DNA of 51,926 nt from a virus. Positions within the stretch are counted from its first letter, which is position 1. Each line of letters begins with the position of its first letter. Below are positions 10,549 to 39,783 of the stretch, one piece after another. Made by a program: the position numbers and the translations under genes. The stretch is from the IMG/VR virus record IMGVR_UViG_3300025426_000042, positions 1-51,926 of that record. One strand, given 5' to 3'. The notes under the pieces are model-generated. The model did not search any database and had not been told where the DNA came from. It saw nothing but the letters and a program-made list of their open reading frames with translations.

Positions 10549-10983
10549 ATGTCTAGCTTATTCACAAAAACACAAATATCTTCTCCAAATATTGCACACC
10601 ATGTTAGCTCTCGTAGATATAGGGGATTTAGTACAGTAAGTCCGCATACTGAAAATTTTGCCTTGTATGATTTTGAATTAATCAAGCAAGATTTACTTAA
10701 TAATTTTTATGTGCGTCAGGGAGAACGCCTAATGAACCCTACATTTGGCACAATCATATGGGATGTTATTTTTGAACCTTTAACTGATGAATTAAAAAAT
10801 GCTGTACTACAAAATGTAAATCAAATATTCAACAGCGATCCTCGAATTCGCACAGGCAACATAGTCATAACACCATACGATACTGGGTTAGAAATTCAAT
10901 GTGAACTGATATATGTGCTGTATAACATACAACAAAAACTTCAAATGAAGTTTGATCAAGCGAACGGACTTGCCCTACAATAA
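10549..10983 (+). CDS. 25: gp25-like baseplate wedge protein
   Basis: The 144-residue protein contains the GPW/gp25 domain: DLLNNFYVRQGERLMNPTFGTIIWD, then FEPLTDELKNAVLQNV and SDPRIRTGNIVITPYDTGLEI. This matches the conserved wedge component of contractile injection systems that binds the gp6 dimer and links sheath to baseplate. Length is close to T4 gp25 (132). It follows the spike gene by 3 bases and precedes gp6, the same order as in T4 (25-6-7). Confidence 0.9.
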   Translation: MSSLFTKTQISSPNIAHHVSSRRYRGFSTVSPHTENFALYDFELIKQDLLNNFYVRQGERLMNPTFGTIIWDVIFEPLTDELKNAVLQNVNQIFNSDPRIRTGNIVITPYDTGLEIQCELIYVLYNIQQKLQMKFDQANGLALQ

Positions 10984-11033: not shown

Positions 11034-14000
11034 ATGAGCTCAACGGATAGACAAAATAATCTTTTAATTGCTGAAAACTGGCAAAAAATTTATCAGTCTT
11101 TTAAAAACGCAAACTTTCAAAGTTACGATTTTGATAATTTGCGTCGTACAATGATTGATTATATCCGTACAAATTTCCCAGAAGACTTCAACGACTACAT
11201 TGAATCAAGCGAGTACCTTGCATTGATTGATCTTATTGCCTATATTGGGCAAAGCATTGCTTTTCGTGTAGATTTAAACGCTCGTGAAAATTTCTTAGAA
11301 CTAGCAGAACGTCGTGATAGCATATTACGATTGGCACGTATGATTGGCTACAATGCTAGCAGAAATATTCCTGCCAAAGGCTTGTTAAAATTTGGTACAG
11401 TTAGTACAACTGAAAATGTAATTGACAGTAACGGCCGCAATTTATCAGGACAATATATTACTTGGAATGATCCAAGCAATGCCAATTGGTATGACCAGTT
11501 CATTAAAGTTATAAATGCTGCACTGCCGGCAACTAGTCAATTTGGTAACCCTATAGACAGCGCAACAATCTATGGAGTTCCAACAGCTCAGTATAGATTC
11601 AATGCTTCAAACACTAATGTTCCAATTTATAATTTTAATAAAACTATTTCTGGTCGTAGTATGAATTTTGAAATTACCAGTACAACATTTAGTGGAAAAA
11701 CTTACATTTATGAAGAAGCTCCTAAAATTGGAAATAAAATAGCATGTATATATAGTGATGATGGCTTTGGTGCTAGTAGTCCAGGTACAGGGTTCTTTTT
11801 TAATTTTACACAAGGCACTATGAATACTGGTGCATTTACAGTTTCTCAGCCTACTAGTAATCAACAAATAGATATTCCTACACAGAACATTAATAATACT
11901 GATGTATGGCTTTATAGTTTAGATCAAAGTACTGGCTTAGAAACAAATTTATGGACACAAGTTCCTGCTACATCTGGTAATAACATAATTTATAATAGTT
12001 TAAGTGCAAAAATTAAAAACATTTACAGCGTAATTACCAGAGCTAGTGATGCGATTAGTTTAAGTTTTAGTGATGGAACATTTGGTAATTTACCCTTAGG
12101 AAATTTTAGAACTTATTATAGAGTAAGCAATGGTTTAAATTACACAATTAATCCAGCAGATATTGTTAATATAGTAGTATCTATTCCTTATACAAGTGCA
12201 AAAAATACAGCAGAAACACTGACAATCAGTTTAAGTCTTGCTACTAGTGTTACTAATGCTGCAACAGCAGAAACAAATGCCAGCGTTAAAACTAATGCTC
12301 CACAAACGTACTATACGCAAAATCGTATGATTACTGGAGAAGACTACAATATTAGTCCGTTAAGTGCTAATCTAAATGTGGCAAAAGTACAGGCTGTTAA
12401 CAGAACTAGTAGCGGCATAAGTCGTTATTTTGACCTAACAGATCCTACTGGAAAATACAGTAAAACAACGTTATTTGCAGATGACGGTATTATCTATAAA
12501 GAAAATTATAATTCAACTACAAATTTTACTTACATCACTCAAACTGACATTCAAGGAATTATATATAATACCATTTACGATATTTTAAATACTCCTAATT
12601 TAAGAAATTTTTATTATTCAAATTATTTAGACTTTTTGAATGTCAGTCTTAACATTCAATGGAACGCAGTAACTACTGACAGTAATACTTCTAGCGGTTT
12701 TATTAGTTTAATTTCTCCTCAATCTGGTTCAAAAAATGTGCCGCTACAAGTCGGATCATTTACAGCAACAGATTTAAAATATCTTACAGTTGGTTCTATA
12801 ATAAAATTTACAGCACCTTCGGGTTATTATTTTAATACGATTACAAATAAATTAATAGCAGGCACAGCTACAGTTCCAAATTCTTCAAACTACATATGGG
12901 CAGAAGTTGTTAGTGTTGCAGATGACGGTACAGCAAATAACACTGGAGTTTTATCTAAAACAAGTCAAGGTCCAATTGTATTAAACAAAGCGATTCCTTC
13001 TCTTGCTGTTGCAACACAGATTATTCCTCAGTTTGTAACAACGATTAGTCCTACTGTCATTACTACTATGATAGATTTAATATTTGCTAATGATAGCTTT
13101 GGTTTAAGATATGATGCTACTACTCAAAGTTGGCAAATTATTTTTGCAAATAACTTAAATGTTACTAATCCGTTTAGTCTTGGTAACCAAGGCAATACTA
13201 GTAATCTTCAATTAGACTCTAGTTGGTTGTTATTGTTTACAACAAATACTGAACAATATACTATTACTACTCGCAATTTGAGATATGTATTCGAAAGTGA
13301 TAATCAAGTAACATTTTACTTTGATAGTAATACTACTATCTATGATACTATTTCTAGTAATACAATTTCAGATACTATTAAAGTTTTAAGTATAAACACA
13401 CAGCCTGATAATACTATCCCATTTACACAAGATTTAACTTGGCAAATTGTAAGTGAGTACATTGGACAAGACGGTTATATCGACCCTAAAAAACTTGTTA
13501 TAACGTTTGCTGATTCAAACGGTAATGGAATTGTTGACAATCCTCAATTATTTTTAGACATTGTTGCTCCTTCAACTAATCCGTTGGCAAAATATATTGT
13601 TGAAAGAAAATATACAATTTCAGAAGGCCAGGAAGATTATGAATATGTAATCAATGATCCAACTACTGGACCTGTACTAATATTTTCAACACAAGCTGCT
13701 GCAGGCCCCTTAACACAATATGCTGACGATACATATTTTTATTTTATAGATACAGCAACAGTTTTTAAACTAACATTATCAACAGGCAAATTAAATCCTA
13801 CATTAGATTATGAAGTTTATATAGGACGTTCAGATTTAAAATTTCAATATGTCCATAGTGCAGACTATGATAGCAGAATTGATCCAGGTGCAAGTAACAT
13901 TATAGATATCTATGTGCTAACGTCAGATTATGATTTGGCATTTAGAAAATGGGTATCTAATGGTGCAGTTGGAACAACTCCATTACCTCCTAGCAGCGAT

Positions 14001-14516
14001 CAATTAAACACATTATTAAGTCCTAATTTAAATTTAATTAAATCTATCAGTGATGAAATTATATACCATCCTGTAAATTATACATTGTTATTTGGTGCAC
14101 AAGCTGAACCTAGTTTGCAAGCAACGTTTAATGCAATGATCAATCCTTCTAGTGCTGTATCGGCCGCAGATGTACAAACAAGAATTTTACAAGCAATTAA
14201 TACATTTTTTGCATTAGAAAATTGGAATTTTGGTGATACATTTTATTTTACAGAATTAAGTACTTACGTTATGAATCAGTTAGCACCTGATTTGATTTCA
14301 TTTGTAATTGTACCAAGTCAACCAGGATTATATTTTGGAAACTTATTTGAAATTCAATGTGCAACTGATAATATATTTTTAAGTTGTGCTACAACTAGCA
14401 ATATTGTTATTGTTTCAGGACTTACTGGAACAAATTTAAAAACAATTAGCTCGACACCCACAAACAGTCTTACTAGCAATCAGTCAGTGACTACAGCTCC
14501 AAACACAGGAAAATAA
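11034..14516 (+). CDS. 6: gp6-like baseplate wedge protein
   Basis: This 1160-residue protein begins with the conserved N-terminal helical domain of marine T4-like gp6 proteins (NLRRTMIDYIRTNFPEDFNDYIESSEY, then LDLNARENFLELAERRDS-like residues near 80-100), a baseplate-J relative. T4 gp6 has 660 residues, so this version has about 500 extra, mainly beta-rich Ser/Thr/Asn residues in the second half. In T4, gp6 dimers form the iris that opens on contraction. It has its own late promoter and ends 4 bases before the giant gene, preserving the 25-6-7 order. Confidence 0.88.
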   Translation: MSSTDRQNNLLIAENWQKIYQSFKNANFQSYDFDNLRRTMIDYIRTNFPEDFNDYIESSEYLALIDLIAYIGQSIAFRVDLNARENFLELAERRDSILRLARMIGYNASRNIPAKGLLKFGTVSTTENVIDSNGRNLSGQYITWNDPSNANWYDQFIKVINAALPATSQFGNPIDSATIYGVPTAQYRFNASNTNVPIYNFNKTISGRSMNFEITSTTFSGKTYIYEEAPKIGNKIACIYSDDGFGASSPGTGFFFNFTQGTMNTGAFTVSQPTSNQQIDIPTQNINNTDVWLYSLDQSTGLETNLWTQVPATSGNNIIYNSLSAKIKNIYSVITRASDAISLSFSDGTFGNLPLGNFRTYYRVSNGLNYTINPADIVNIVVSIPYTSAKNTAETLTISLSLATSVTNAATAETNASVKTNAPQTYYTQNRMITGEDYNISPLSANLNVAKVQAVNRTSSGISRYFDLTDPTGKYSKTTLFADDGIIYKENYNSTTNFTYITQTDIQGIIYNTIYDILNTPNLRNFYYSNYLDFLNVSLNIQWNAVTTDSNTSSGFISLISPQSGSKNVPLQVGSFTATDLKYLTVGSIIKFTAPSGYYFNTITNKLIAGTATVPNSSNYIWAEVVSVADDGTANNTGVLSKTSQGPIVLNKAIPSLAVATQIIPQFVTTISPTVITTMIDLIFANDSFGLRYDATTQSWQIIFANNLNVTNPFSLGNQGNTSNLQLDSSWLLLFTTNTEQYTITTRNLRYVFESDNQVTFYFDSNTTIYDTISSNTISDTIKVLSINTQPDNTIPFTQDLTWQIVSEYIGQDGYIDPKKLVITFADSNGNGIVDNPQLFLDIVAPSTNPLAKYIVERKYTISEGQEDYEYVINDPTTGPVLIFSTQAAAGPLTQYADDTYFYFIDTATVFKLTLSTGKLNPTLDYEVYIGRSDLKFQYVHSADYDSRIDPGASNIIDIYVLTSDYDLAFRKWVSNGAVGTTPLPPSSDQLNTLLSPNLNLIKSISDEIIYHPVNYTLLFGAQAEPSLQATFNAMINPSSAVSAADVQTRILQAINTFFALENWNFGDTFYFTELSTYVMNQLAPDLISFVIVPSQPGLYFGNLFEIQCATDNIFLSCATTSNIVIVSGLTGTNLKTISSTPTNSLTSNQSVTTAPNTGK

Positions 14517-17500: not shown

Positions 17501-20500
17501 TTGTTCCTGCTACACCTACTAAGTTAGGAATGTGGCCTGCGTATGCTCCAAAAATTTATACAGATACTACACTTATAAATCCACAAACTGTAATCCAAGG
17601 CCACGACGGCAGTATTATTTTAGCATATGGCGATTATAGAGATGCATTATTATTAGAACTAGAAAAACGAATTTTTAATAATATTAAAGTCAAATATGAT
17701 ACTAGTATTTTTGATGTAACAGATTTTATCCCTAGTTATAATAGATCTACGGATTATAGTTTAACAGAATTTAATGAAATTTTAGCTCCTAATTTTTATA
17801 AATGGACTAGTTTGATTGGTAAAGATTTGACTACCCCGTTAAACTATGACAGAACAAATAGTTTTACATATAACTATTCTTTAAATGCCGCACCCGACGG
17901 AACAAGTTTACCGGGATACTGGAGAGGCGTGTATCGTTGGTTATTAGATACTGACCGTCCTAATATTTGTCCTTGGGAAATGCTAGGATTTAGTATTCAG
18001 CCAGCATGGTGGAATTCAGTATACGGCCCATCACCATACACTAGTAATAATTTGCCAATGTGGCAAGATATTTCAAAAGGCATTGTTAGAGAACCTAACA
18101 AGCCTGTCGCCTACCGACCTAAATTTGCAAAACCTTTCTTACTAGACCGATTACCAGTTGACGAATCTGGAAATTTAATTAGTCCACAATTCTCGGGATT
18201 AGCAAGTGGAATGATTCAGCCAAGTATTGATAATAATTTTATATTTGGCGACGGTAGTCCGGTTGAATCTGCTTGGACACGTAGTAGCTATTATTCATTT
18301 TCAATAATAATAGCTACAATCCTATTAGCTCCAGCTAAGACATTTGGTATTTTATTAGATAGATCTAGAATTTCTAGAAATATTGCCGGTCAACTTGTAT
18401 ATTCAGAAACTGGATTGCGTGTTAAACCTTCTGATATTTTGCTACCTAGTGTATATTCAAGCAACACTCGAGTACAGACAGCAGGTCTAATAAATTATAT
18501 TGTTGATTTAATTTTTAATTATATTTTTAGCAATAACGTTGCGGGATACAATTCATATGCAACCGATTTAGCAACTATGGATGTTAAATTAAGTTACAGA
18601 GTTGGTGCGTTTACAAATAAAAATCAGTTTAATTTATTATTAGAATCTAAGACTCCAAGTAGTTCAGGTAATGTATTTGTTCCTACGGAAGATTATACAG
18701 TATTCTTAAATAAATCTAGTAGCGTAGAAAAATTAGTTTATAGCGGCGTGGTAATAACAAAGCTATCAACTGGTTTTGAAGTTAAAGGTTATAGCATTAC
18801 TCAACCTTATTTTAAATATTATGCTCCAAACAACACTGGTATGTACATTAATGTCGGCGGTATATCTGAAAGTTATGTTGATTGGGCTGAAAATCAAACT
18901 TATACTACTGGTACACTAATTCAGTACGGCGGAAAATATTATAGAGCTATTTCAACAGTAGTTTCTTCTACCAGCTTTAATCCATTAGAATTTTCACCAA
19001 TATTATCTCTTCCTATATTAGGTGGCGCAAATGCCTATATACGAACTAGCTGGGACAAAACAAAACCTCTAGTTGCACCTTATGGTATAATGTTTACAAC
19101 AGTTCAAGAAGTGGTTGATTTCTTGATAGGGTACGGAGAATATTTAAAAGATCAAGGTTTTGTATTTGATGATTTTAATAATAATTTAAGTTCAGTAGCA
19201 AACTGGGAAACTAGTGCACGAGAATTTATGTTCTGGTCTACACAAAATTGGAGCTCAGGTCAAGATAAGTGGAGCAACTGGGAGCCTAATCAAACTTATT
19301 CTTACGGAAGTATAGTAAAATATGAAGGAGACTATTACAGTGCATTAACAAATATAGCATTGTCTTCGTCTTTTGACTATACTAAATGGGATTTGATGCC
19401 AGGATTAAGTAACATCGGTGCTAGTGTTATAAGTCTAAGTCCAAGTGCAAACGGTGTAAATTTTACTACAAATCTTACAGTAGTTGACAGTATAACTAAC
19501 AAATTTAATCCTTATGAGATTTTTAAAGTTGATGGTACTCCTCTAGAAGTTGCACACGTTGACAGTTATCGTCAAGGAAATTCTGTAACATATAATCCCA
19601 GAACTACCGATGGAATCTATGGTGCTGCATTTTATCTAGTACAAAACGAACATGTTGTGATTATTAATAATTCAACTATTTTTAACGATGTAATTTACAA
19701 TCTAGCCAGTGGTTACAGACAAGAACGTTTAAAAGTAAGTGGTTACATTACAAACGATTGGTACGGCGGATTAGATATTCCAGGATTTATTTTTGATGCT
19801 GCTGCTATCGAATTATGGCAACCATATCAAGATTATAATTCAGGAGATATTGTATCGTATCAGAATTATTATTATAGTGCAAATAAATTTGTTGCAGGAT
19901 CTCCTATATTTTCAGCTGCTAATTGGTCCCAGCTAGCCGGCAAGCCGATAAGTCAAATTTTGCCAAACTGGACTAATAGTGCTACACAATTTAAAGATTT
20001 CTATAGCTTAGAAGTTGATAGTTTTGATAGTGCACAACAAAAAATGGCTCAGCATTTAATAGGCTATCAAAAACGTCAGTATCTTGATAATATCATTCAA
20101 GACGATGTAAGTGAATTTAAATTCTATCAAGGTATGATTCGTGAAAAAGGTACACAAAATGTTCTTAACAAACTATTTGATGTATTAAGTTCTGATGCAG
20201 AAGAAAGTTTAACATTCTACGAAGAATGGGCATTGCGTGTAGGACAATACGGAGCTGCCAATGCGTTTGAAGATATTGAATTTATTTTAGACCAAGGTAA
20301 ATTTAACAGAAGCAATCCGCAAGCAACAGTATTAGTTAATAGTATTGATTCTAAAATAAATCCGTTTGTGATTCAACAAACTCCTAATGATGTTTATGTT
20401 AAACCATTAAGTTATAATTCAACACCGTTTCCTGTAGTAGAAAATTTTGAACCGTTTTTAAGAAGTGCAGGTTATGTTAACACATCAGATGTATTTTTGA

Positions 20501-23500
20501 GTTTAGGCGATATATCGCAACTTGAAAATCAAACTGTTAGTAATATCACACCTGGAGTTTACTACGTAATATTATCAGTAGGAACAACAGACTTTACACA
20601 AATAGGTGCAACTAGCAATACAGTAGGAGTATCATTCAAAGCATCGAGTACTGGAATTGGCACAGGATCTGTAGCTGTTGATGTTACACAATTAAACGAA
20701 GGTGCATATATTTGGTGTGCATTTGATAACACATTTGAAGTTAATAGTTGGAATGTTTATAGATTTACTGATACCGGAATTCGTGTTAATGCACTATCTT
20801 ACGATACAAATGTTTTAACAATTACTTGTCAAGATCTTATAAAATTTAATGTAGGTTCTTACGTAGGACTCATGCTAGATATTGATTCGCTTGTTACAGG
20901 CATTAATGGATTTTTTAAAATTACAAGTGTTACTCTTAATGTATTCACAGTATCTGCTACAGTAGTAGGACTAACCCCCCAGTTTAGCCATGCATCCAAT
21001 TTAGTTGTTTATAGTCTAATATCACAACGTGCTAGCTCTATCGATTATATAGACACAATATTGCCAAAAAATATTAAAGCTGGAGATTTCATCTGGACTG
21101 ACAATAGAGGGGATGATAAATGGTCTTCTTGGATATATAATCCTGTTTATAAAAAATCTTCAGTTCCAAACATAATATCTTCAAACAATTTACAGTTCGG
21201 TAGAACAATTGCAATGAATACGCAAGGAAATACTGCTGCTGTAAGTATGCGTTCTGGCCAAGTTAGTATCTACGACAAAGTTGGCAGATCGGTTGCATGG
21301 ACTCAACGTCAATACATACAATTGCCTTTTATTGCAAATAATAATGCTAATAACCTAAATGTACTTGCAACTACACTTGCTATTAGCCCAGACGGCACTT
21401 GGTTAGCTACTGGTTCTCCTTTAGCTGGATTTGTAGCAACTAGATATGTTGGAGCATACCAATCTGTCAATACTTATTTGGCAGGAGATATTGTATCATA
21501 CTTGAATATGTATTATAAAGCTGTATTTCCAGTACCTGTAAATTCAACTCCAGATACAGATTTATATTATTGGAATTCTATTTTTTATATTCCTGTAGAT
21601 TCAACAGCTAGTAATTCATCATTATCGCAACAAGGTGCTACTAGTTTATATAAAAAAGATGCTAACAATGTTTATCAGTTAGTCGATAGTATCATAAGTC
21701 CATTTCCATCAGTCGGCGAAAAATTTGGATCTAGTTTAGTATTTGGCACTGACACGTTGTTTATTGGCGCCAGCGGATTTAATAACGGAACCGGAAGAGT
21801 TTATAAATTAGTTTATAATACTGTTGAAGAATTCTATACATTTTATAATGATGTTGGTAGTTCAGGCAAGACTCTTAAAGTATTAAGTTCTAGTGGAATA
21901 GTAGCTGGACAAACAATCAATGGCGTTGGCTTTAATAAGGGACAGTTAGTTGACTCGGTGTTAACCAAATTAGTATTTTCAGCTATCATTGGATTGCCAA
22001 ACTATATTAGAGATATACAAAATAATAATATTTCATTAACAACAATTACTACAGGAACTATTGTTTCAAGTTCGGAAATTTTTTATAATACAACTGTAGT
22101 AAGTACCGGAGTGGATAATTCAGGTAGCAGCTATATCTTGGTTAGAAGCACACAAGATTTGCCGCCGACTGTATCAACTGTGACATTTAATAATGGTAGT
22201 GTGTCGTTTAGTGCTATAGTTAATGCTGTAGTCAGCGCATCTACAATTATTTTAACACAAGCACCTGACTCTACACCAGACGGAAAATTAACATTTACAA
22301 GGCTAGCATGGCAATATGATTCTACAGGAAACTTAACTGGATACGAAGAATCTAGTAATTTTGGATGTAATATTTCATTAAGTTCGGATTCAACTAAATT
22401 AATTGTGTCTGCTAGTCAGGGAATTTCTGGAAAAGTATACATTTTTACAAATACAAACAGTAGCTGGTTATCTGTACAACCACCGTTAGTTGGTTTAGAT
22501 AATAGCTTTGGTACAAGTACATCTATATCAACTGACGGCAATTTTATTGCAATAAGCAACGAATTATCAACAACTACTAAAATAAACGAACATGGTAATG
22601 TTGGTGTATATGAACTTACTAACGGACAATATGTTAAAGTACAAGATATAAAAGACTATTATCTCGACCTGGGTAGCAACTTTGGTTCCAAAGTTGCTTT
22701 CATGAACAATTCAAGTACTCTTATAATATACAGTGAAAATGCTGCCGGAGCAATTGAAACAACATTTGATGTATACTCTTCTTTATTAACAGATAGCCAG
22801 ACGGTGTATGGTACACCATATGTATCGGATCCTGCTTCTAATAAATCTCTAGCAGAAACTACTTTTGATAAAAATTCTACACAATTTAGTACCACGGTTG
22901 TTGGCAGTGGACGAATTGATGTATATGATAGATATAATGATGCATGGGTTTATAGCGAAAGCATAATAAATGAAGATCAACAATTAGATGGATTCGGTCT
23001 AGGATTTGCTGTTGGCAACAACAATATTTTTGTAGGATCTCCGTTAGCAACAGTTAAAACTAATACCAATTCTGGTATAGTATATGCGTATACTAAACCG
23101 TTAAATTCTTTAAGTTGGACACAATATAGATCGCAAATTGATGTAGTAGATATTAGTAAACTTAAAAAATCATTCTTATACAATCGAATTAATAATGAAT
23201 TAGTAACATACTTGGATGTGATTGATCCAATCCAAGGAAAAATTGCCGGCCCAGCCGACGAGGAAATAAAATTTAAAACATTTTACGATCCTGCAGTTTA
23301 TTCTTATTCAGACGGAACTGTTGGAGTAACAGTTAGCAATGGTACATATTGGTCTAATAATCAGTTAGGTCAGCTATGGTGGGATCTGAGAACAACTAAA
23401 TTTGTTACACCGTATTTTTCAGATGTTGCTTATAGAAACAATGTGTGGAATCAACTTGCACCTGGTGCTAGTGTTGATATGTACGAGTGGATTTCTACAA

Positions 23501-26500
23501 ATCTAACTCCAAGTCAATGGGATGCTCAAGCTGATACTCCTGCTGGACTAGCTTTAGGTATTAGTGGCACAAGTTTGTATGGTAATAGTGCATACACAGT
23601 TCGTCAGCGTTATAATTCGGTGACACAGAAATTTGTAAACACTTATTATTACTGGGTAAAAAATAAAACACTAGTTCCTAATGTAAACGGCAGACATATT
23701 TCTGCTCAAGCAGTATCTAATCTTATTGCTAATCCAAAAAATTCTGCATACACTTATATGGCATTACTCGGCAAAGATTCTTTTAGTCTAGTTAATGCGT
23801 ACCAATATCTTAACGATACTAAAATTGCACTGGCTGTTGAATACTGGAATACTGATAGTATACATAGAAATATACATAGCCAGTGGAAATTAATTAGTAC
23901 TGATACAATTGTTGATTTACCCCATACTATTGAACAAAAATGGATAGATAGTTTGTGCGGAGTTGATGCTGCTGGCCGACCTGTTCCTGATATTAATTTA
24001 CCTGCTAAATTAAAATACGGTATTGAAAATCGTCCACGTCAAGGTATGTTTGTTAATAGAGTCGAAGCTCTAAAAGAATTTGTAGAAGCAGCCAATATTG
24101 CATTAGCGTCAGATCAAATTGTTAAAAATTATAATTTAACTGGATTGGAATCTTACGATACAGAACCTACAACAATTACTGGCTTGTATGATACAACGTT
24201 GGATACTTCAGTAGAATTATCTTATATTAATACCGCATTATTCCAACGTCCTTCTATAATTCCAGTTATTACAAATGGCAATATTACAGGAATAACAGTA
24301 GTAAGTCCAGGCAAAGGATACTTAGTTGCACCTTACATTGATATTGTCGGTACAGGAAAAGGTGCCGTTGTCCGAGCAATTATTGATACATTAGGTAGAA
24401 TTGTAAATGCAACTGTAATATCTCCAGGTTACGGTTATGATAACACTACTACATGTACAGTTAGAGATTATAGTGTACTAGTACATAGCGATGCACAAGC
24501 CGCTGGAAACTGGAGTATATATTCTTTTGACCCAACTTATATCGATAACGCATCGGGATTAATCGCAGGCCTATGGTCTAGAATTTTAACACAAAGCTAC
24601 GATGTTAGAAATTATTGGAGTTACATTGATTGGTACGGTTCTTATACTGATTTGACAGGAAAAGTATTGTATACAGCTACTCAATTTACAGCAGCAGATC
24701 ATAGCGTACAAACTTATGCTGATTTAAATTCTATTTCAGTATCAGTTGGTGAAATTGTTAAAGTACTAACAGTTAATACTGGTGGTTGGGAACTTTTGTA
24801 CAAGTATGCTGATTCTACTAGCATAGATTGGACATTAAGTTATAGTGTTGTGGGTATACAAAACGGAACTATTCAGTTAAGCAGTAGTTTGTATCAAACT
24901 GATTTTACCGCTGTAGGATACGATGCAAGTATATACGACGGCGGAGCATTTGATGTTAAAGCTGCAACAGAGTTAAGAATAATTCTAACAACATTAAAGA
25001 ACAATATTTTTATTAATACACTAAAAAGCACTTACTTAGATTTATTCTTTAGAAGTGTTCGTTATGCACACAGCGAACAACTTTATCTTGATTGGATTTT
25101 CAAAACAAGTTTTGTTCGAGCAACACATAATGTAGGAACATTAGGTCAACCAGTTTACTATCCTGTCGATAATCTAAGTAACTTCCAAGATTATGTAAAC
25201 GAAGTCAAGCCATATAAAACTAAAATTAGAGAGTATATTAGTGATTACACAGCATTAGATACAGCAGAATCTACAGTAACAGATTTTGATTTGCCTCCAG
25301 TCTATTCAAATAATCAATTAAGTTTGATTCATACACAAGTGGTTGATGAAACAATTACTGTAGATTCAGCGCAAGTAAACACATATCCTTGGAAATTTTG
25401 GTTAGATAATGCCGGCTATAGTGTTATTGATTTGAAAATTGTCAACGGCGGATCTGGCTACATCACTGAACCGCAAATTGTTTTTTCAAGTTCTAGCGGA
25501 TCTGGTGCAACAGCAATAGCATATTTTACCAACGGTACTATTAATAGACTAATACTACTAACTTCTGGAAGCGGATATTTAACTGCTCCAACTGTAAGTA
25601 TTGTTGGCGGGTTAGGCGCTAATGGTGTAGTTGCAAAAGCAGTTGCAATAATAGGCAACGGCGTAGTAAGATCTAATCTTACTGGAATAAAGTTTGATAG
25701 ATTAACTTATAACAACTACATTACAAATATAGATGTTACAAATACATTTACTGGTTCAGGATCTTTATTACAATTTCCGTTAGAATGGTCTCCTGATATT
25801 AGGGTAGGACAGTCTTCAGTTACAATCAACGGCATACTTGTATTGAGAGAACTATACAAATTGTCAATTGTAAGTTCGACTAAATCTGGATATACAAAAT
25901 ATTCAGGAACAATAACATTTACTACACCACCATCCGCTGGATCTGTTATTGTAGTGAAGTATAAAAAAGATATTTTGTTATTAAACGCCGCAGATAGAAT
26001 TAATTTTTTCTATAATCCTGTAACAGGTGAGTTAGGAAAAGATTTAAATCAATTAATGACCGGTATAGATTACGGTGGAACTGTTGTAGGCAATCTTGGA
26101 TTTGATGCTGGTCAAGGCTGGGGAGAATTTACATACGCTGCTCAGGGTTGGGACATATTTGATCCAGCATTTAATGATTATATTGTAACAGTTGATTCTA
26201 ACACTACTTATAATTTCACATTACCTTATACTCCATCACTAGGTACAGAAATTAACGTATACTATACTGAAAGAATTTCAACATCAGTTGTATCTGACGG
26301 TGAACAAACGTTATACCCGTTTAATTTGTATCTATTCCCAGTAGAAGCAACAGTTAAGACAACAGCAGTTTCTCAAGCGCCCGCACATATCAGCACAATG
26401 ACTAGTGTTGCTAATCCAGAAATTGATTTATTTTCTATCTCTACAAATGTGCAATCTTCTTTAATTGCAATGGCAGGTATTACAGGACAATCAACTATTA

Positions 26501-29500
26501 CATTTGATACTATAACAAATATAGTTATTGGACAATATGTGTCTGGTGCTGGTGTAGTATTTGGTACAACTGTTGTTAATTATACAGAAAATGAAATAAT
26601 TTTATCCAATAATTTGTTTTTAGATGCTACTGGATCTTATACATTCTTTTCTTTAGGTAAAATCTTAACTGTTACTGACACTTCGAATATTGAAGTAGGA
26701 ATGGGAATAGTTGGAAATGGTTTTAACACACAGTATGTGACTAAAGTGCAAAATTCTACAACTTTATATATAAGTTCTCCACCTTCTTCTATTATACTAA
26801 GCGGAGAAACTGTAACATTTAGTGGAAATGTTGCAGGATCGGCAATTCTTTATTTGAATTCAGTATCTAATATAAATGTAAATGATATTGTATCTTGTGC
26901 GGTTAATTCTGTTCTTGGGTATAATACAACAGTATTGTCGATAGATACTGTAAATTCAACAGTTGAGCTAAGTCAAATATTATATTCTAGTGTAGTTAAC
27001 GGTGTTGATTTTATTTTTACTAGAGCATTGCAGCAACCGACTGAAGCAACATCTTTTCCGAATGGAACATTGTTATTAACTAATCCTGTTCCGGCTGGTA
27101 GCACACTTATTATTTCTGGATATATACCACCGACTCGCATAGATGCAGAAGATTTTGATACAAATACTGGAACGTCTCTGTCAAACCCGTATGCTATTAT
27201 GCCTTCGGTAACAATATCAAGAGTTAGTTCTCCGTATCTAACAGTTAATACATTTGCAAACGGCGACATGACTTATACAATCAATGTACCGCTTGCATAC
27301 GCTACTGAAAATGATGGTAGTATAATTGTGTTACGTCAAAGTACTAGCGACGGAACTATTGCATCAACAGATGCAGATACGTATATAACTAGCGGCGATT
27401 TAACAAATTTAAAAGGAGTCTATCTTACAGCATCGGGCATCAATGCCGATGATGTTATTATAGATGGAGATGGTTTTGTTACCCCTACAACTAGCCCTGC
27501 TCCCGAAGAAGTTGTTCCAGGACAAGTAGTGGATGCACTTGTGGTTAAAGTATATGAAAGACCTACGTCAGGTAGCGCAAAGATTGATGTTGAAAATTAT
27601 ATTGCATCGGGAAATACTGCAACTTTTAATTTAAAAGAATTTCCAAGTAGTGAACGTTCAATTATTGTTAAGGTTGACGGAACTATTAAAACATTTAACA
27701 CTGACTATACAGTAGATTATAAAAACCAAACAGTTGTACTTAATACAATTCCGCCTGCAGGACATATTGTAACTATCTTTAATATTGGTTTTGCAGGAGA
27801 AAATATTTTAGACATTGATTATTTTGTTGGTGACGGAGTAACAACTGAGTTCATTACAAAAGCTCCATGGTTAGATAGTATTTCGTCTGCGGTTTATGTT
27901 AATGGTGTTGCAAATAATGTTCAATTGTTTAAGACAGATAGTTCATATTCATTAAGCAATTTAGTTGGTATTAGATTTATCAATGTACCTACTGTAGGTT
28001 CATTAATTAATTATATCATTGTTAACGGTAATCAAAATACATTTGCAATAACTAACACAGAAACTGTTGCTACAAACGGAAATTCAGCCTATACTTTAGA
28101 GTATCCTATTGGTGATCAACTACCTAACGAACCTAACATGATAGTTCGGGTTAATCAACAAATCCTTCCAGGACCAGTATCGTTATATTTTACTATTGGC
28201 AGCAATAGATTAACATATAGTATTGATAATAATCGTGTAACTCCTTATACAGTATCTGCTGCAGACGTTGTAGTCAGTGTTGACGGTGTTATTCTAGTAG
28301 ATGGTAAAGATTATGTACTTGATTTAGGTGGAGTATCAATAAAAATTACCAGAGAAATTTATAAACAATACTCGGGTAAACAACTTGTAATTAGTGTAAA
28401 CACTGGTCAAGGATATGTATATAATCCTTCTACTAAACAGATAATATTCTCTAGACCGTATTTTGGTACAGATATTGTAGAAGTATTCAGCGCATATAAA
28501 CATGACACTTTAGATTTACAAAGAACTGCTATTACAGTTGATTCGAGTATAAATCTAACACCGGATTCTATGGAATTTAATTCTTATCAATCAATTATTG
28601 GTGGTACAATAGTTCTTGATAGAAGTGTATTAAATGAAAGATACATCTGGGTAATTAAAAACACAGTATTATTAACTCCTGGTGTTGATTATAAATTAAA
28701 TGACGATCACCTGAGTATTAAATTAACTGTTAATCCAACTATTACTGATACAGTTACATTGATAACATTTGGTAGTAACATTATTAAGTCTGGAATATCT
28801 TATATGCAGTTTAAAGATATTCTTAATCGCACTACTTATAAACGTTTGAATGCTAGTAAACGTACAACATTAGCAACTGATCTGCATTGGAATAGCCAAT
28901 CGATTGTTTTAGAAGATGCTAGTAACTTTGAACAGCCTGTACAAAACGTAAATATTGCAGGAGTTATTGAAATACGCGGAGAACGTATAGAGTACTTTGG
29001 TAAGATTGGAAATACATTGATAAACCTACGTCGAGGTACATTAGGAACTGGTGTTAATACTTTAGTTAAAGCCGGAACTCACGTACAAGACATTGGTAGA
29101 GTAGAGACTATACCATATCAAGATTCTGTTAGTACCAGTACTATTGTTTCAAACGGTACAGATACGGTGCCACTGGGATTTATTCCTAAATCAGTTAACG
29201 AAATTGAAGTTTTTGTAGGCGGTTACGATACCAGTGCTGTGTGGGCAACTAATACTGAATATACTGCGGGTACAATTGTTAATAACGGCAGCTACACATA
29301 CCGTTGTATTGTAACACACACTAGCGGAACTGTATTTGCTAATGATTCCTCATATTGGGCATTCTTTATTGGAAACATCAGACTTAAGAAAGAATCTTAT
29401 AAAATGTTTAACGTAGATGTTGCTCCTTACAGTCCTGCCGGTGATGTAACCTTTCCTGCAGACTTTTCAGTAGACGGTACAACAGCTAAACTAACATTGA

Positions 29501-30329: not shown

Positions 30330-32546
30330 ATGACATATCAAGTTCAATTTACTGATTCTACTAATCCTAATAAACAACCAATTAAGGTTGCAGACGGAAC
30401 CGTTAATACTAGTGCTACTAGTCTTGGTTTTGCTGGCCGAGGATATCCAGGATATGCTCCAATAATTGCAGACGATTTACTTCATTTATTAGAAAATTTT
30501 GCAGCACCTACCGCACCAATCAATCCTGTTCAAGGACAGTTGTGGTATGATACTAGTGTTAACGTACTAAAAGTTTATGATAGTACAAGTTGGTCAACTG
30601 CAGGCAATCTAAAAAAGAGTTCTAGTGCACCTGCAATCGCTAACAGTATTGCTGGAGACCTATGGGCTAACACTGCAACTAATCAATTATATTTGTTTAC
30701 TGGTGGGTCTTGGGTACTTATAGGCCCTCAGTTTAGTTCAGGTACAAATACCGGACCGATTGTTGATTCTATAATTGATACAAACAACGTTACACACTAT
30801 GTTATTGGAATGTATGCTAATAATAATTTAATTTCAGTTATTAGTAAAGAAAAATTTATTCCAAAAATTCCAATAGCCGGATTTAGCACAATTTACGAAG
30901 GGATCAATTTAAGTTCAGTTGATGCTACATATAATTCGACTACAAATCCGTATCCTACTAGATTTTATGGAACGTCAAGTTCGTCAGATGCTTTATTAAT
31001 TAATAACATTGTTGTTGAGTCGGCTAATTTTTTAAGAAGCGATGTTATTAGTACATCTAACAATCAATTAAATGTTAGATCTGATCAAGGATTACAACTT
31101 GGTGCAAATTTAGGATTTGTTATTGATGTTGAAAATGGAACCCCAACAATTAAATCTACCCTAAGCGGAACAAATCTTAATATAAATTTAACCAGCGGCA
31201 ATGTTATTAGTACAGTATTGCACGTTGATGCACGTAATAGAGTATCAATTAACGGAATAGCACCACAATCTGAACTAGATGTTTCGGGATTAATTACAGC
31301 TAGTTCTGGTTTAAACATTACTGGAACTACTAATAGCACATATACTAGAGCAACGCCTTTTACAACAGCCACTGGTAGTATTGTTACTCAAGGCGGTTTA
31401 AGTGTAGGCTTAGATAGTAATTTTGGAGGAAAACTTACTGTTTACGGACAAGCAACTCTTAGTAATGTAGATTCTAGTGGCACTCCTATTCCTGCAGCAG
31501 TTTTAGTACCAGGGTATACAACTAATTCTGCAGAAGCAACGTCATTGAATTTACCAAATGTTTCAGTTCCATTATATGATATTGGTACTGCTACTAGACC
31601 TTTTAGAAATATATATGCTACAAATTTTTCAGGTAACTTTGCAGGAACATTTACAGGAACACTGGAAGGTAGTACAAACGGTACAGCTGCCGGATTAGCA
31701 AGTCCAACAGTATTCAGTATTATTGGAGATGTAATTAGTAATAAAGTTAGTTTCAACGGACAAACTGAAAATGGTACTGCAATTTTTAGTACACAAATAA
31801 GTGAAAACTTTGTATCGTCTAAGACACCTGCAACTGATTCATTTGATACTGATTCAGTTTTAATATATAGAACAGGTACAGGATTGTTACAAATGCCAAA
31901 ATCGGTGTTGTTATCTCATGTTCCTGTAATACCTGTTGGAACTATATTACCGTTTGCCGGTACAGTTGTACCAACAGGATATCTGTTATGTGACGGTTCT
32001 GAAGTTTTAATTAGCGAATACTCAACATTGTATTCAAAAATTCTATTTACTTATAAAGATAGAACTTTATTAAAAGGCGCAAGCACATTTGCATTGCCCG
32101 ATTTAAGAGGAAGATTTCCACTTGGCGCCGATAATATGAACAATGGGACTACTGTACCTAGTTCAGATGGATCTGGTAATTTAATTAGTACTACAACAGA
32201 CTTAAACGGCAACGCAAGTTCTTCTGCTAAACGAGTTAATGAATCTACAGCGAGTGTTGTTGGATTAGGAAATACATCTGCTACAGGTACTACTCAATTA
32301 ACATCTAGTAATTTACCCGATCATACTCATACACTTAATAATGGACACAGCCAATATTTTGCTGTGAATACTCCCAATGAAGCTCCTGATAGTACAGCTC
32401 AACCAAACAAAGGAACTACTGGCGGAGCTGGTACAGGTTCTGCAATTTTAAATACAGGCGGAGTAAATGGTAGTTCAAATTCTCCAATTAACATTATGAA
32501 CCCGTATTTGACTATCAACTATATAATTTTTACTGGTAATATTTAA
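30330..32546 (+). CDS. Tail fibre 1 with phage tail-collar domain
   Basis: This 738-residue fibre has an N-terminal domain of about 130 residues (IIADDLLHLLENFAAPTAP, then PVQGQLWYDTSVNVLKVYD and GDLWANTATNQLYLF) that is shared with the next two genes. The middle is a Ser/Thr/Asn-rich beta shaft. Residues about 530-600 form a tail-collar domain (VPVGTILPFAG-like start, PTGYLLCDGSEV, then FALPDLRGRFPLG), and the C-terminus contains SSNLPDHTHTLNNGHSQ, a His-rich motif typical of gp12-like short fibres that trimerise around metal. It probably binds a surface receptor. A clear AAGGAGA site precedes the ATG. Confidence 0.82.
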   Translation: MTYQVQFTDSTNPNKQPIKVADGTVNTSATSLGFAGRGYPGYAPIIADDLLHLLENFAAPTAPINPVQGQLWYDTSVNVLKVYDSTSWSTAGNLKKSSSAPAIANSIAGDLWANTATNQLYLFTGGSWVLIGPQFSSGTNTGPIVDSIIDTNNVTHYVIGMYANNNLISVISKEKFIPKIPIAGFSTIYEGINLSSVDATYNSTTNPYPTRFYGTSSSSDALLINNIVVESANFLRSDVISTSNNQLNVRSDQGLQLGANLGFVIDVENGTPTIKSTLSGTNLNINLTSGNVISTVLHVDARNRVSINGIAPQSELDVSGLITASSGLNITGTTNSTYTRATPFTTATGSIVTQGGLSVGLDSNFGGKLTVYGQATLSNVDSSGTPIPAAVLVPGYTTNSAEATSLNLPNVSVPLYDIGTATRPFRNIYATNFSGNFAGTFTGTLEGSTNGTAAGLASPTVFSIIGDVISNKVSFNGQTENGTAIFSTQISENFVSSKTPATDSFDTDSVLIYRTGTGLLQMPKSVLLSHVPVIPVGTILPFAGTVVPTGYLLCDGSEVLISEYSTLYSKILFTYKDRTLLKGASTFALPDLRGRFPLGADNMNNGTTVPSSDGSGNLISTTTDLNGNASSSAKRVNESTASVVGLGNTSATGTTQLTSSNLPDHTHTLNNGHSQYFAVNTPNEAPDSTAQPNKGTTGGAGTGSAILNTGGVNGSSNSPINIMNPYLTINYIIFTGNI

Positions 32547-32547
32547 A

Positions 32548-34479
32548 ATGAGCTATACTATAACGCATACCGATGGAACCACATTAACTGTTATTCCTGA
32601 CGGGCAAATTAATCAAACAGCATCGGATCTGACACTTGTTGGCAAAAATGCTACAGGTTATGGTGGATTTTTTAATGATAACTTTATACGTCTTTTAGAA
32701 AATTTTGCCAACACTACCCAACCAAATTATCCTGTAGTCGGACAGCTATGGTACGATACTTCGGAGAATCGTCTAAAAGTATATGCCAACGGCGGTTTTA
32801 CTGGTACAAGCGGAACTATTGTAAGTCCAACACCTCCTAGCGGAATAACTATTGGAGATATTTGGATTGACAATGCAAATGGTCAGTTATATTTTAATGA
32901 TGGGATATCGACAAAATTAGCAGGACCTTTGTATAGTAGTAGTCAGGGAGTTAGTGGATTTAACATAGAATCTGTAGTTGATATTAATGGTCAAAGTCAT
33001 ACTATTGCTGTGTTGTATGTTGCTGGTACAATATTAGGTATTTTTAGTAAAAATACTTTTATTCCTGCTAGCCCAATTGCAGGCTTTACAAGCATGGCGC
33101 AATTTATAGGCTATCAAACAAATAATATGTTAACAGTTGTATCAATTACTTCGGGTAACATGAGCGTAGGACAAGTTGTTTCTGGTATAAATGTATTATT
33201 GAATACACAAATTACTAGTCAGTTATCCGGAGATACAGGCAGTACAGGAACTTATACAGTTAGTACAAGTGCAACTGTTGGGTCTTCAGGTAGTCCTTCA
33301 ACATTAACAGCAACAAGCGATGTCATACATGTTGGATTTAACACAAGTTCTTATCCTGGTGTAATTTTCAATGCAATTGCTACTGAAGCAAATGCTTTAT
33401 TAGCTGCAGATGGTAGTTTAAAAACAGCAGAAAGTTTTTTAAGTGTTGACGGAAATAGTACAACTAACGGATCAATTACAATACAAAATGCCAATCCGTT
33501 AACACTTGGTATAAATTCTAATGTTACGTTAAAATTCAATACTTTTAATAATACATTTCAATTACAATCAAATGTTATAAATCAAAATTTTGAAATTAAT
33601 TTGCAAACATCTGGTAGTCTACAAACAGCAATGCATTTTGATACTCAGCATCAGCGTGTGGGAATTTATAATATTAATCCCCAGGCAATGTTAGATGTTG
33701 CAGGCGATGTAATTATTGAAGGAAATCTAACTGTTAATGGTACAACTGAAACAATTAGCAGTACTACAGTAACCATTGCGGATAAAAATATAGTATTAGG
33801 ACAAACTCAAACTCCTACAGATACTACTGCCAGTGGCGGCGGAATAACAGTTGCTGGTCTCACAAATAAAGTAATATCCTGGAGTGCTTCTGCAAGTAAT
33901 AGCGGCAGTTCATCTAATGCAGGTTATTGGAATTTTTCAGACTTTGTTAACGTTGGATCATCGGGAACTAGTGCCGGATACTACCTAAACGGGCAACCAG
34001 TAGTAAGTGTCAATACAAATAATACTCAGTTTAGTCTAGGATCTAACATAACTGGATCTTCGCTAACTAGTGTAGGTGTGCTAACAAATTTACAAGCAAG
34101 TAATTTATATTTTAACGGTAGTACAATTAGTTATGTAAATGGCTCCCAGTCAACCGGTACTGTATATCTGGCTCCAAAAGGCAACGGCACAGTTGATGTT
34201 TCAGGCGCAAGAATTAGCAATTTACAAAGCCCTCAATCTAGTTTGGACGCTGCTAACCAACAGTATGTAATTACCCAAGTAACTACAGCACCGTTAGGCA
34301 TTGGATTAATAACCACAGGATATAATAACACTACAATTGGAACATCATTATTGAGCAAGATTTTTCCTCCTAGCGAGCACGGAAATTCAACAATTTGTAG
34401 GGTTCAATGCTCAGATAGCACACTAAAAGAGTACATATTAATAGGCGGAACGTGGAGTTGGCAATTTGATATTGTCTAA
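32548..34479 (+). CDS. Tail fibre 2 (paralogue of fibre 1)
   Basis: The 643-residue protein shares the fibre N-terminal domain (FFNDNFIRLLENFANTTQP, then PVVGQLWYDTSENRLKVY) with its two neighbours but differs after residue about 140. A VGQVVSGINVLLNTQI module near residue 210 resembles modules in the giant protein. Near 390-440 is a trimeric-fibre motif (LDVAGDVIIEGNLTVNGTTET, then TVTIADKNIVLGQ). The C-terminus, ending GTWSWQFDIV, has no recognisable receptor domain. It starts 1 base after fibre 1 stops, so the two are co-translated. Confidence 0.75.
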   Translation: MSYTITHTDGTTLTVIPDGQINQTASDLTLVGKNATGYGGFFNDNFIRLLENFANTTQPNYPVVGQLWYDTSENRLKVYANGGFTGTSGTIVSPTPPSGITIGDIWIDNANGQLYFNDGISTKLAGPLYSSSQGVSGFNIESVVDINGQSHTIAVLYVAGTILGIFSKNTFIPASPIAGFTSMAQFIGYQTNNMLTVVSITSGNMSVGQVVSGINVLLNTQITSQLSGDTGSTGTYTVSTSATVGSSGSPSTLTATSDVIHVGFNTSSYPGVIFNAIATEANALLAADGSLKTAESFLSVDGNSTTNGSITIQNANPLTLGINSNVTLKFNTFNNTFQLQSNVINQNFEINLQTSGSLQTAMHFDTQHQRVGIYNINPQAMLDVAGDVIIEGNLTVNGTTETISSTTVTIADKNIVLGQTQTPTDTTASGGGITVAGLTNKVISWSASASNSGSSSNAGYWNFSDFVNVGSSGTSAGYYLNGQPVVSVNTNNTQFSLGSNITGSSLTSVGVLTNLQASNLYFNGSTISYVNGSQSTGTVYLAPKGNGTVDVSGARISNLQSPQSSLDAANQQYVITQVTTAPLGIGLITTGYNNTTIGTSLLSKIFPPSEHGNSTICRVQCSDSTLKEYILIGGTWSWQFDIV

Positions 34480-34498
34480 AAATTAAAAGCTAAAACGG

Positions 34499-34506
34499 TA
34501 TAAATA
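34499..34506 (+). promoter_or_regulatory. Late promoter (TATAAATA) before fibre 3
   Basis: This is an exact match to the T4 late consensus TATAAATA, in the 49-base gap between fibres 2 and 3. It lies 22 bases before the ATG, with an AAGGAACGAG ribosome-binding region in between. It is the best-matching member of the late motif set in this window. Confidence 0.75.
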
Positions 34507-34528
34507 CTAGGAATAAGGAACGAGCGAG

Positions 34529-36055
34529 ATGTCATATACGATTAAGCATTATAATGGTACTTTACTAACTACAGTTGCGGACGGTACCGTTGATACAAGC
34601 ACCGATCTTACCCTAATTGGTAAAAATTATGCCGGTTACGGCCAGTCACAAAACGATAATTTTGTGTGGTTATTAGAAAATTTTGCTAACACCACCCAAC
34701 CACCCAACCCACTAGCTGGCCAAGTTTGGTTTGACAGTGCAAATTTAAAATTAAAATTTTACGACGGAAGTCAATTTAGAACGGCTGGCGGCACCGAAGT
34801 AAGCAATGTACAACCCACAGGGCTAACAACAGGCGATTTATGGTTTGATACAGCTAGTGATCAGTTATTTGTATATAACGGTACAACTTTTACACTAATT
34901 GGCCCACAAGGTATAGCTGGTGCATTGCCAACCGAGATGCAGAGTATTTCGGTTAAAGATCTCGAAAACGGTGCAACACATGATATTATTCAAGCTATTG
35001 TAAACGGACAAGTAGCTTTTATTATTAGTCCCGATACTATTCCATTTACATTAGATCCTTCGATTAATTCTATTACAGGATTTGATAAAATACATCAGGG
35101 TATTACCCTAGCATACACAAGAAATTCTGATAACGGCATAACAAACAGCAGTTCTAGTTATAGATTTTGGGGAACAGCTACAAATGCAGAAAAGTTAAAT
35201 GGACTTCCGGCCAGCAGTTATTTGACATCAATAAATCCGTCATTCAGTACATCCGTAAGTTTTTCAGATTTTGGTTATACAGTAGGCGGCTCAGGTGGCA
35301 CTTATTCTACAAAATTACAAGTGAGTATTGTTAATAACGGACAAACTCCGTTAATTTCAAATAAAATTAGCGATTCTATTTTATTCCAAACAACTAATAA
35401 CAATTCACCAATAACATATTATCCATTGACAATTAAAGGTACTGATTTATTACCAGGAGGTCAGTTACCTGCAAATGGTTATACTAGCACTAATATAAAC
35501 AATATTGGTAGTAGTTCAGCAACATGGGCTAATGTGTATGCGACTAATTTTATTGGTACAGCTACTAATGCTAATTATTTGTCTTTAGGTGGTACACCTG
35601 TATCTGCTACTACAGCCAGTAGTGCAAATACAATTGTTGGTAGAGATAGCAACCAAGATATTTTTGCAAATGTTATTCACGGTACAGCTACTACAGCAAA
35701 CTATGCTGACTTGGCTGAAAAATATCTTGCTGATGCCGAATATGAAACTGGTACAGTTGTTAGCATTGGCGGCAAAGCTGAAATTACAGCCAGTACTAAG
35801 GGCGATTTAGCCATTGGTGTTATTAGTGAACATCCTGCGTTTAGAATGAATCAAACACTAGTAGGCGGCGTTTATGTAGCATTAAAAGGACGAGTTCCAG
35901 TCAAAGTAATTGGCCCGATCACTAAAGGTCAAAGATTATCTGCTAGTAATAATGGATACGCAGAATTGGCTACTGATAACACATTGGTGTTTGCCATAGC
36001 GTTGGAAACAAATTTAACAGATTCGATAAAAAATGTCGAGTGTGTTATACTTTAA
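34529..36055 (+). CDS. Tail fibre 3 (paralogue) with a different C-terminal domain
   Basis: The 508-residue protein has the shared N-terminal attachment domain (NDNFVWLLENFANTTQPPNP, then LAGQVWFDSANLKLKFYD and GDLWFDTASDQLFVYNG). Its C-terminal 110 residues (ADLAEKYLADAEYETGTVVSI, GVISEHPAFRMN, VALKGRVPVKVIGPITKGQRL) resemble a beta-rich domain that ends many marine phage fibres and is distantly like the peptidase-G2 region. I see no catalytic residues I would vouch for. It has its own TATAAATA promoter. Confidence 0.75.
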   Translation: MSYTIKHYNGTLLTTVADGTVDTSTDLTLIGKNYAGYGQSQNDNFVWLLENFANTTQPPNPLAGQVWFDSANLKLKFYDGSQFRTAGGTEVSNVQPTGLTTGDLWFDTASDQLFVYNGTTFTLIGPQGIAGALPTEMQSISVKDLENGATHDIIQAIVNGQVAFIISPDTIPFTLDPSINSITGFDKIHQGITLAYTRNSDNGITNSSSSYRFWGTATNAEKLNGLPASSYLTSINPSFSTSVSFSDFGYTVGGSGGTYSTKLQVSIVNNGQTPLISNKISDSILFQTTNNNSPITYYPLTIKGTDLLPGGQLPANGYTSTNINNIGSSSATWANVYATNFIGTATNANYLSLGGTPVSATTASSANTIVGRDSNQDIFANVIHGTATTANYADLAEKYLADAEYETGTVVSIGGKAEITASTKGDLAIGVISEHPAFRMNQTLVGGVYVALKGRVPVKVIGPITKGQRLSASNNGYAELATDNTLVFAIALETNLTDSIKNVECVIL

Positions 36056-39196: not shown

Positions 39197-39783
39197 TGGA
39201 TTTTGAAGTTTTAAATGATACTCCTAGAGTAGTCTATTATCATAACGTACTCACTAGCAGTGAGTGCGATTATGTTATTGCCAACATAGATAACTTTGAA
39301 AAATCTATGGGGTTTGATCTTGAAACTAAACAGTCAAAACCCACAGAGTGGCGTACTAGTAGCGGTTATCATGATTTTAATGATAAATTTAAGTATATTA
39401 CAGAACGATCGGCAGAGTTGTCTAATTACCCGTTTGCTAATATAGAACAATTGCAAGTATTACAGTATAAACCAGGCGAGTTTTATAAACCACATAATGA
39501 TTATTTTAACTTTCCTCCCACTATTGTGTCCACTGATAACGACAGAGTTGCCACAATAATTTTTTATTTAAATGATGATTTTACAGGTGGCACTACAGAA
39601 TTTCCTACGTTAAATATCAACGTTAAACCTAGAAAGGGTTCTGCGTTATTTTTTGATTACAAGTATACAGCTGAAATAAACAAACTAACATTACACGGCG
39701 GAATGCCAGTAGATTCAGGTGTAAAATACGTCGCTACATCTTGGATACGTGGCAATCAATGGAGGCATGCCGATGGGCCTTAA
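39196..39783 (+). CDS. Prolyl 4-hydroxylase (2-oxoglutarate/Fe(II) oxygenase)
   Basis: The 195-residue protein is a compact P4H catalytic domain. The double-stranded beta-helix motifs are complete: YKPGEFYKPHNDYF gives the HxD iron ligands (His100, Asp102), VATIIFYLNDDFTGGTTEFP is the conserved middle, and LHGGMPVDSGVKYVATSWIR supplies the distal His167 and Lys177 for 2-oxoglutarate. The family uses O2 and 2-oxoglutarate to hydroxylate proline in peptides. Its ATG overlaps the stop of the proline-rich fibre by one base, so the two are translated together. The PPPPA tract of that fibre is the obvious candidate substrate. P4H-like genes occur in other marine phages, where targets are also unproven; a ribosomal protein or elongation factor of the host is an alternative. 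Confidence 0.9.
   Translation: MDFEVLNDTPRVVYYHNVLTSSECDYVIANIDNFEKSMGFDLETKQSKPTEWRTSSGYHDFNDKFKYITERSAELSNYPFANIEQLQVLQYKPGEFYKPHNDYFNFPPTIVSTDNDRVATIIFYLNDDFTGGTTEFPTLNINVKPRKGSALFFDYKYTAEINKLTLHGGMPVDSGVKYVATSWIRGNQWRHADGP

Follow-up and report, generated by a model that had tools for sequence, protein, structure and literature searches.

What are domains of a chitin-binding family doing inside a giant phage protein? This question is raised by a 51,926-base IMG/VR virus record (IMGVR_UViG_3300025426_000042), analysed here over its whole length and called the window, in which one long open reading frame (ORF) encodes a protein of 5043 residues, called the giant. A preliminary description of the window had noticed five segments of this protein that resemble carbohydrate-binding modules (CBMs) of the CBM5/12 type, and had proposed that they could hold the phage to surface polysaccharide before receptor binding. 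Our analysis agreed with the family resemblance, and we favour, with moderate confidence, a different role, in which the modules are docking or bridging elements inside the distal tail, carried by a peripheral baseplate wedge protein.

Five CBM5/12-like modules in the giant protein

The five motifs, about 45 residues each, were found exactly at the residues given before, starting at 1455, 1587, 1766, 2313 and 4908, and span 18883-29376 of the window against 18870-29360 in the preliminary description (Table 1). A regular expression written from its wording of the recurring Trp/Tyr pattern matched no segment of the giant other than these five; 1000 shuffles of the protein gave a mean of 0.084 matches, and five were reached in 1/1000. 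The resemblance to the CBM family was borne out by the profile search that had been suggested for it. Pfam PF02839 (CBM_5_12) matched over four stretches in 18721-22920, corresponding to modules 1-4, with 53.3 bits (E 2.9e-14; cut-off 26.2), and the C-terminal piece with module 5 scored 24.4 bits, just below the cut-off (E 2.9e-5). Searched singly in six frames, all five modules matched at E of 0.001 or less, the cut-off being passed by modules 5 and 1, with modules 2-4 below it. A profile built from these modules and those of relatives, which makes it partly circular, matched all five strongly (E from 3e-18 to 9e-10), and the best match elsewhere among the 615 open stretches of the window had E 0.87. 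Around module 4, residues 2195-2790 (21103-22890) gave weak matches of the WD40/FG-GAP kind (E 0.002 against the PDB, under the cut-off in Pfam), a hint that this module may be set into a beta-propeller.

Predicted fold and nearest solved structures

AlphaFold2 models were made of residues 1425-1830 and 1690-1945, covering modules 1-3. The first (39 sequences) had a mean predicted local distance difference test score (pLDDT) of 62.7, with ten-residue blocks over the modules at 68-90; the second (41 sequences) was poor, with a mean pLDDT of 46.0, and module 3 alone was confident, at about 82-89. Foldseek aligned the chitinase A1 domain 1ED7 at 1.9 Å over 44 residues (template modelling score 0.73 by target length, E 0.21), and its top matches by E-value were the receptor-binding complex of phage Milano (8fqc, 3.4e-4) and the fibre of phage 7-7-1 (9rkv, 6.6e-4), with chitin deacetylases found too. 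VIA-align placed 8fqc_P1 first with Z 8.2, an alignment that spans two modules, hence its root-mean-square deviation is not meaningful, followed by 9jeo (Z 7.0, 1.2 Å over 45 residues), 9rkv (Z 6.8, 2.3 Å over 48) and 1ed7 (Z 4.9, 1.4 Å over 40); further matches were the T4 head, the Anabaena injection-system cap and the Pam1 tailspike. With module 3 alone, 8fqc_P1 (Z 7.1, 1.4 Å over 45) and 9rkv (Z 6.7) again scored above chitin deacetylases (Z 5-6) and 1ed7 (Z 4.5, 1.5 Å over 40). A structure Z below 8 is modest by the tool's own note, and the sequence profile backs these matches. The CBM fold expected by the preliminary description thus stands as a prediction for modules 1-3, the part that the models cover, with 1ed7 superposing at 1.4-1.9 Å over 40-44 residues.

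Profile comparisons with the PDB were also performed. A profile of module 2 (21 rows, every second of 41) matched the 7-7-1 fibre (5e-4) and the Milano tail spike gp124 (0.003) ahead of chitinase A1 (0.11). Among phage structures, a pooled profile of 58 modules from all sites matched Milano gp124 (1e-4), the 7-7-1 fibre (2.8e-4) and the F2-pyocin tail fibre (6.9e-4). The module-2 alignment runs through the Milano loops VPPGTPF and LPPGPFDPANW, and the Milano report describes these motifs of the tail spike as contacting proline-rich stretches of BW2 and BW3 (PMC10811340). Taken together, the alignment and that report suggest that the loop holding the contact Trp of chitinase A1 is the loop used for wedge contact in Milano. 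The giant's modules carry a Milano-like Phe in this loop.

Contact residue, conservation and selection

Relatives of the N-terminal part of the giant were found at 341 places in viral contigs, and the best 80 were kept. Fifteen of these loci were too short and 65 were readable to at least 1820 residues; 41 non-redundant rows, window included, were drawn from the 59 of at least 2500 residues. Modules 1-3 were present in 65/65 relatives readable that far, and their spacing was 132/179 in 36 and 131/179 in 5 of the 41 rows. Under the chitin-contact residue of chitinase A1, which we take to be Trp687, modules 1, 2 and 3 have Phe in 40/41, 41/41 and 40/41 rows (121/123 overall), the two exceptions being Leu, and Trp occurs in 0/123. 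Since CBM5 members use other aromatics as well, this replacement counts against a chitinase A1-like site and not against the fold. Other invariant residues are specific to one module, such as Asp1771 and Gly1628 (each 41/41).

The ratio of nonsynonymous to synonymous substitution rates (dN/dS) was about 0.25, 0.14 and 0.12 for modules 1-3 and 0.38 for module 4, the least constrained, compared with 0.11-0.15 for the scaffold and 0.22-0.29 for the region around module 4; these ratios are rough, as they come from 18 pairs with a proportion of synonymous differences below 0.6 and dS near saturation. Judged by these values, the modules are under purifying selection, unlike a receptor-reading tip. 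Diversifying selection was rejected on the same low, if rough, ratios. The zone of module 4 held no copy in 9, one in 26 and two in 6 of the 41 rows, and the C-terminal module was seen in at least 13 of 19 relatives' whole contigs, with coordinates read by eye. Directly after module 3, residues 1812-1920 (19954-20280) are highly conserved, with an F..G....KG motif in 26/26 rows, isolates included; Pfam gave nothing above cut-off for the helical segment in this place.

Filled and empty insertion sites among relatives

The sites of modules 1-3 were compared in an alignment of 35 giants, several rows of which are near-copies. All three sites were filled in 16/35 (the window, nine picked members of its clade, and L134, L137, L138, L141, L143 and L144, L numbers denoting loci of relatives), only site 3 in 12/35 (L102 and 11 others; the sequences of L105 and L115 end within the module), only site 1 in 4/35 (phages Atu_ph07, Phosso, PAC2 and SCTP-2), sites 1 and 3 in 1/35 (L101), and none in 2/35 (RaK2 and Vibrio phage 2.275). 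For SCTP-2, only the alignment reveals the copy at site 1, and an additional copy lies just upstream. Site 2 was empty outside the clade of the window, and site 3 in all six isolates compared. The scaffold could be aligned on both flanks of every empty site, and because the empty sites are clean in distant relatives, the modules look like inserts that plug into loops of a scaffold which is itself conserved.

A module tree of 44 columns clustered by site and not by genome, with 7 label changes versus 33 in shuffles, and recent shuffling of modules among sites was therefore rejected. Starred branches hinted at separate origins of the site-3 module in two clades, a candidate we set aside as a single origin was compatible by the approximately unbiased (AU) test. 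One origin per site was not rejected on these columns (AU p 0.34, 0.48 and 0.48 for sites 3, 1 and 2), so independent gains are not claimed.

Modules in other proteins of relatives

In three fetched regions of relatives, five fibre-like ORFs each carried eight tandem CBM5/12-like modules at the N-terminus. The arrays begin at residue 17-26 in 5/5; in Milano-type spikes, the N-terminus is the end that attaches to the virion. One of these ORFs had an N-terminus resembling tail fibres of cyanophages and others in 52 records, all below 60% identity, with about 25-36% among the 30 matches listed. CBM5/12-like modules were also present in gp6-like proteins, one in Atu_ph07, one in Phosso and three in Vibrio phage 2.275.

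Docking weighed against other roles

The giant gene stands directly after the gp6-like gene in the baseplate cluster, as expected of a T4 gp7/BW3 counterpart: the T4 order is gp53, gp5, gp6, gp7, gp8, and the window has gp5-like, gp25-like, gp6-like, giant. By this order the giant occupies the T4 gp7 slot, and we infer that it may be a gp7-equivalent. Its PHROG matches and gene neighbours also agree with the preliminary description in placing it among the virion proteins encoded in a baseplate cluster of a phage.

In the docking reading, the giant would be a peripheral baseplate (wedge) protein, its place in the virion being presumed, and the five modules would be copies of the small beta-fold of CBM5/12, set into loops on the surface of its scaffold. 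The loop around the invariant Phe would grip partner proteins, such as neighbouring wedge proteins or fibres mounted there, much as the CBM5/12-like domains of the Milano tail spike do. We favour docking because the modules have fixed places, purifying selection, Phe for Trp and the Milano loop, and because there are precedents in T4 and CBA120. The T4 capsid insertion domain is reported to bridge neighbouring molecules (PMC3185693), and subdomain D2 of CBA120 TSP1 lies in the virion-attaching N-terminal domain, in a paper that calls the significance of the resemblance to chitin domains unknown (PMC3966878). Both are cases in which the fold is used inside virions elsewhere.

Several points weigh against docking. 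The structure of modules 1-3 is a predicted one and any partner contact is putative, and the gp7 position is deduced from gene order; alignment of the giant to T4 gp7 and four homologues with hhalign gave nothing significant, and the scaffold model was too poor for a fold comparison. The Milano and 7-7-1 proteins match the module-2 profile twice each, and every single stretch is weak. The five fibre-like ORFs were fetched because they bear modules. The Pfam name of the family is carbohydrate-binding, Phe can also stack on sugars, and the best PDB matches of the pooled profile are chitinase A1, by its chitin-binding domain (E 5.5e-8), and chitin deacetylases (4e-7). Finally, the presence or absence of modules between lineages would suit an adhesin too.

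These last points bear on the role first proposed, adhesion to glycans, in which the modules would cling to polysaccharide on the host surface by many weak contacts, either ahead of receptor binding or while it takes place. The profile match and predicted fold agree with it, as does the gain or loss of modules between lineages, and 30 modules would be present per baseplate if each of six wedges had one chain. The baseplate wedge protein Gp119 of Bacillus phage Vp4 is reported to have CBM folds and to decorate cells, which the Deep-Blue homologue without CBMs does not (PMC11406892); the AlgoCIS baseplate protein Alg11 has two CBM-like modules proposed to attach (PMC8894135). Against it stand the Phe at the contact position, the fixed positions and the purifying selection, and among solved structures those closest to module 2 are domains by which fibres are anchored to the virion; the CBA120 paper of 2014 also states that polysaccharide binding by head-binding domains of tailspikes had never been reported until then (PMC3966878). 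Adhesion remains a proposal, and the main rival because the CBMs of Vp4 Gp119 bind cells; we regard it as possible, if doubtful. A third reading, which we consider unlikely, is that the modules are passive: small domains that fold well and that surface loops tolerate as spacers or stabilisers with no specific partner. Sites that are cleanly filled or empty while the scaffold around them still aligns would fit, as would the variable, weakly constrained module 4, but modules 1-3 are kept throughout the relatives, and their own invariant residues seem more than upkeep of the fold needs.

An extension of docking, which we consider improbable, is a homotypic code, in which wedge-borne modules would pair with the eight-module N-termini of the fibre proteins of the same phages and the number of plugged-in modules would set how many and which fibres the baseplate mounts; a chitin-binding fold would then have been turned, across an entire lineage of large phages, into a connector that the virion can use again and again.

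Gene neighbourhood and other features

The coordinates of the modules and genes are collected in Table 1. A PHROG 11259 protein is also encoded downstream of the giant ORF. No match in the PDB was found for the N-terminal 700 residues of the giant, and an NCBIfam scan of 8 proteins gave no family. Residues 167-288 (15019-15384) match a stretch in cyanophage tail fibre/spike proteins at about 32-42% identity, and for this reason look like another shared inserted domain; residues 4359-4423 (27595-27789) resembled PF03906, the N-terminal domain of the T7 tail fibre, with 18.6 bits (E 0.0016), short of the cut-off of 25.2 bits.

Table 1. Modules and genes of the window, and module-bearing genes of relatives (L numbers)
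Feature	Coordinates	Strand	Evidence or remark
Module 1, residues 1455-1498, CBM5/12-like, insertion site 1	18883..19014	+	PF02839 26.5 bits; predicted fold
Module 2, residues 1587-1630, CBM5/12-like, insertion site 2	19279..19410	+	PF02839 22.7 bits; predicted fold
Module 3, residues 1766-1809, CBM5/12-like, insertion site 3	19816..19947	+	PF02839 17.6 bits; confident in two models
Module 4, residues 2313-2358, CBM5/12-like, weakly propeller-like region	21457..21594	+	PF02839 17.2 bits
Module 5, residues 4908-4952, CBM5/12-like, about 90 residues from C-terminus	29242..29376	+	PF02839 28.3 bits
Giant virion protein, 5043 residues	14521..29652	+	residues 1-1400: PHROG 10938 (virion structural protein), E 4.6e-158; gene directly 3' of the gp6-like gene, in the slot of T4 gp7
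gp6-like baseplate wedge protein	11034..14516	+	PHROG 10646, E 1.6e-296
gp25-like baseplate wedge protein	10549..10983	+	PHROG 261, E 3.6e-16
Baseplate hub and tail lysozyme (gp5-like)	8656..10545	+	PHROG 13211, E 8.6e-59
Three consecutive tail fibre/collar-like or structural genes	30330..36055	+	30330-32546 and 34529-36055: PHROG tail or tail fibre families, E 2.5e-14 and 1.6e-10; 32548-34479: PHROG virion structural protein
Eight-module fibre-like ORFs of relatives, 1586 to >2685 residues	L091:8112-14000; L091:1-8057; L092:4658-10339; L092:10376-16000; L093:4459-9218	-; -; +; +; +	3/5 run off the stretch
Module-bearing gp6-like genes of relatives	L005 10339-13935; L006 10335-13931; L009 11998-15861

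After the tail genes, 39196-40387 holds two adjoining genes for 2-oxoglutarate-Fe(II) (2OG-Fe(II)) oxygenases (PF13640, E 4e-17 and 7e-11). On the minus strand there are a flavin-dependent thymidylate synthase gene (44662-45339, Thy1, PF02511, E 1e-44) and a gene for a DUF2201 metallopeptidase-like and VWA-like protein (46870-48054, E 3.6e-41), which adjoins an ORF at 48127-49218 whose start resembles an ATPase P-loop by eye. A host clue was sought in three relatives' loci that lie in contigs of metagenome-assembled genomes, and their labels (an archaeon, an Endomicrobia bacterium and a Rickettsiales bacterium) were too mixed to name a host.

Relation to known systems and meaning

The modules share with the CBM5/12 domains of chitinase A1 (1ED7) and the DA1 chitin deacetylase (4NY2) a common profile, the fold, the length of about 45 residues and the W...Y..G..V.Y.G..Y core. 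In the enzymes the domain is appended to the enzyme, whereas in the giant it sits in loops of a virion scaffold, the contact Trp is changed to Phe and binding is putative. The same Phe loop is found in Milano gp124 (8FQC) and in the fibre of 7-7-1 (9RKV), which lead the sequence matches of module 2 among solved structures. Their domains, like D2 of CBA120 TSP1, are N-terminal on a trimeric spike or fibre, whereas those of the giant are internal (residues 1455-4952), in a putative wedge protein, which would be the opposite side of such a joint; the N-terminal location typical of virion anchors is seen instead in the separate fibre proteins of the relatives. Vp4 Gp119 (baseplate wedge protein 3) likewise carries CBM-type modules in one wedge protein that are absent from a homologue; its folds are CBM16-like, it belongs to a Bacillus phage and cell binding is reported for it, whereas the giant's modules are CBM5/12-like and known from sequence (PMC11406892). 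The giants of Agrobacterium phage Atu_ph07, Sinorhizobium phage Phosso, PA5oct-type Pseudomonas phages, Salicola phage SCTP-2 and Klebsiella phage RaK2 have a homologous scaffold (about 26-32% identity) and are likewise encoded next after a gp6-sized gene; site 1 is filled in four of these isolates, RaK2 has none of the three, and sites 2 and 3 are empty throughout.

Neither the domain family nor CBMs in wedge proteins nor anchoring domains of the CBM5/12-like type are new in themselves, and the domain is already named in the records of two relatives (one of them, PP408249.1, as chitin-binding type-3 domain-containing protein). In the literature on chitin-binding or CBM modules with phage baseplates or tail fibres, judged by title and start of abstract, we found none on modules in this protein. 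As far as these tools show, and within the databases used, what is new is the pattern of modules plugged in site by site, in a giant protein at the gp7 position, together with the altered contact residue. Databases label such proteins chitin-binding, a name that invites a story of sugar adhesion. If glycan binding is true, adhesion by baseplate CBMs of the Vp4 type would be extended to large phages, with a wedge-position protein of 5000 residues. If the fold instead connects virion parts, the CBM_5_12 label would be misleading on many structural proteins of phages, and the acquisition of domains by wedge proteins could be followed in the site-by-site pattern of filled and empty sites as in a natural experiment.

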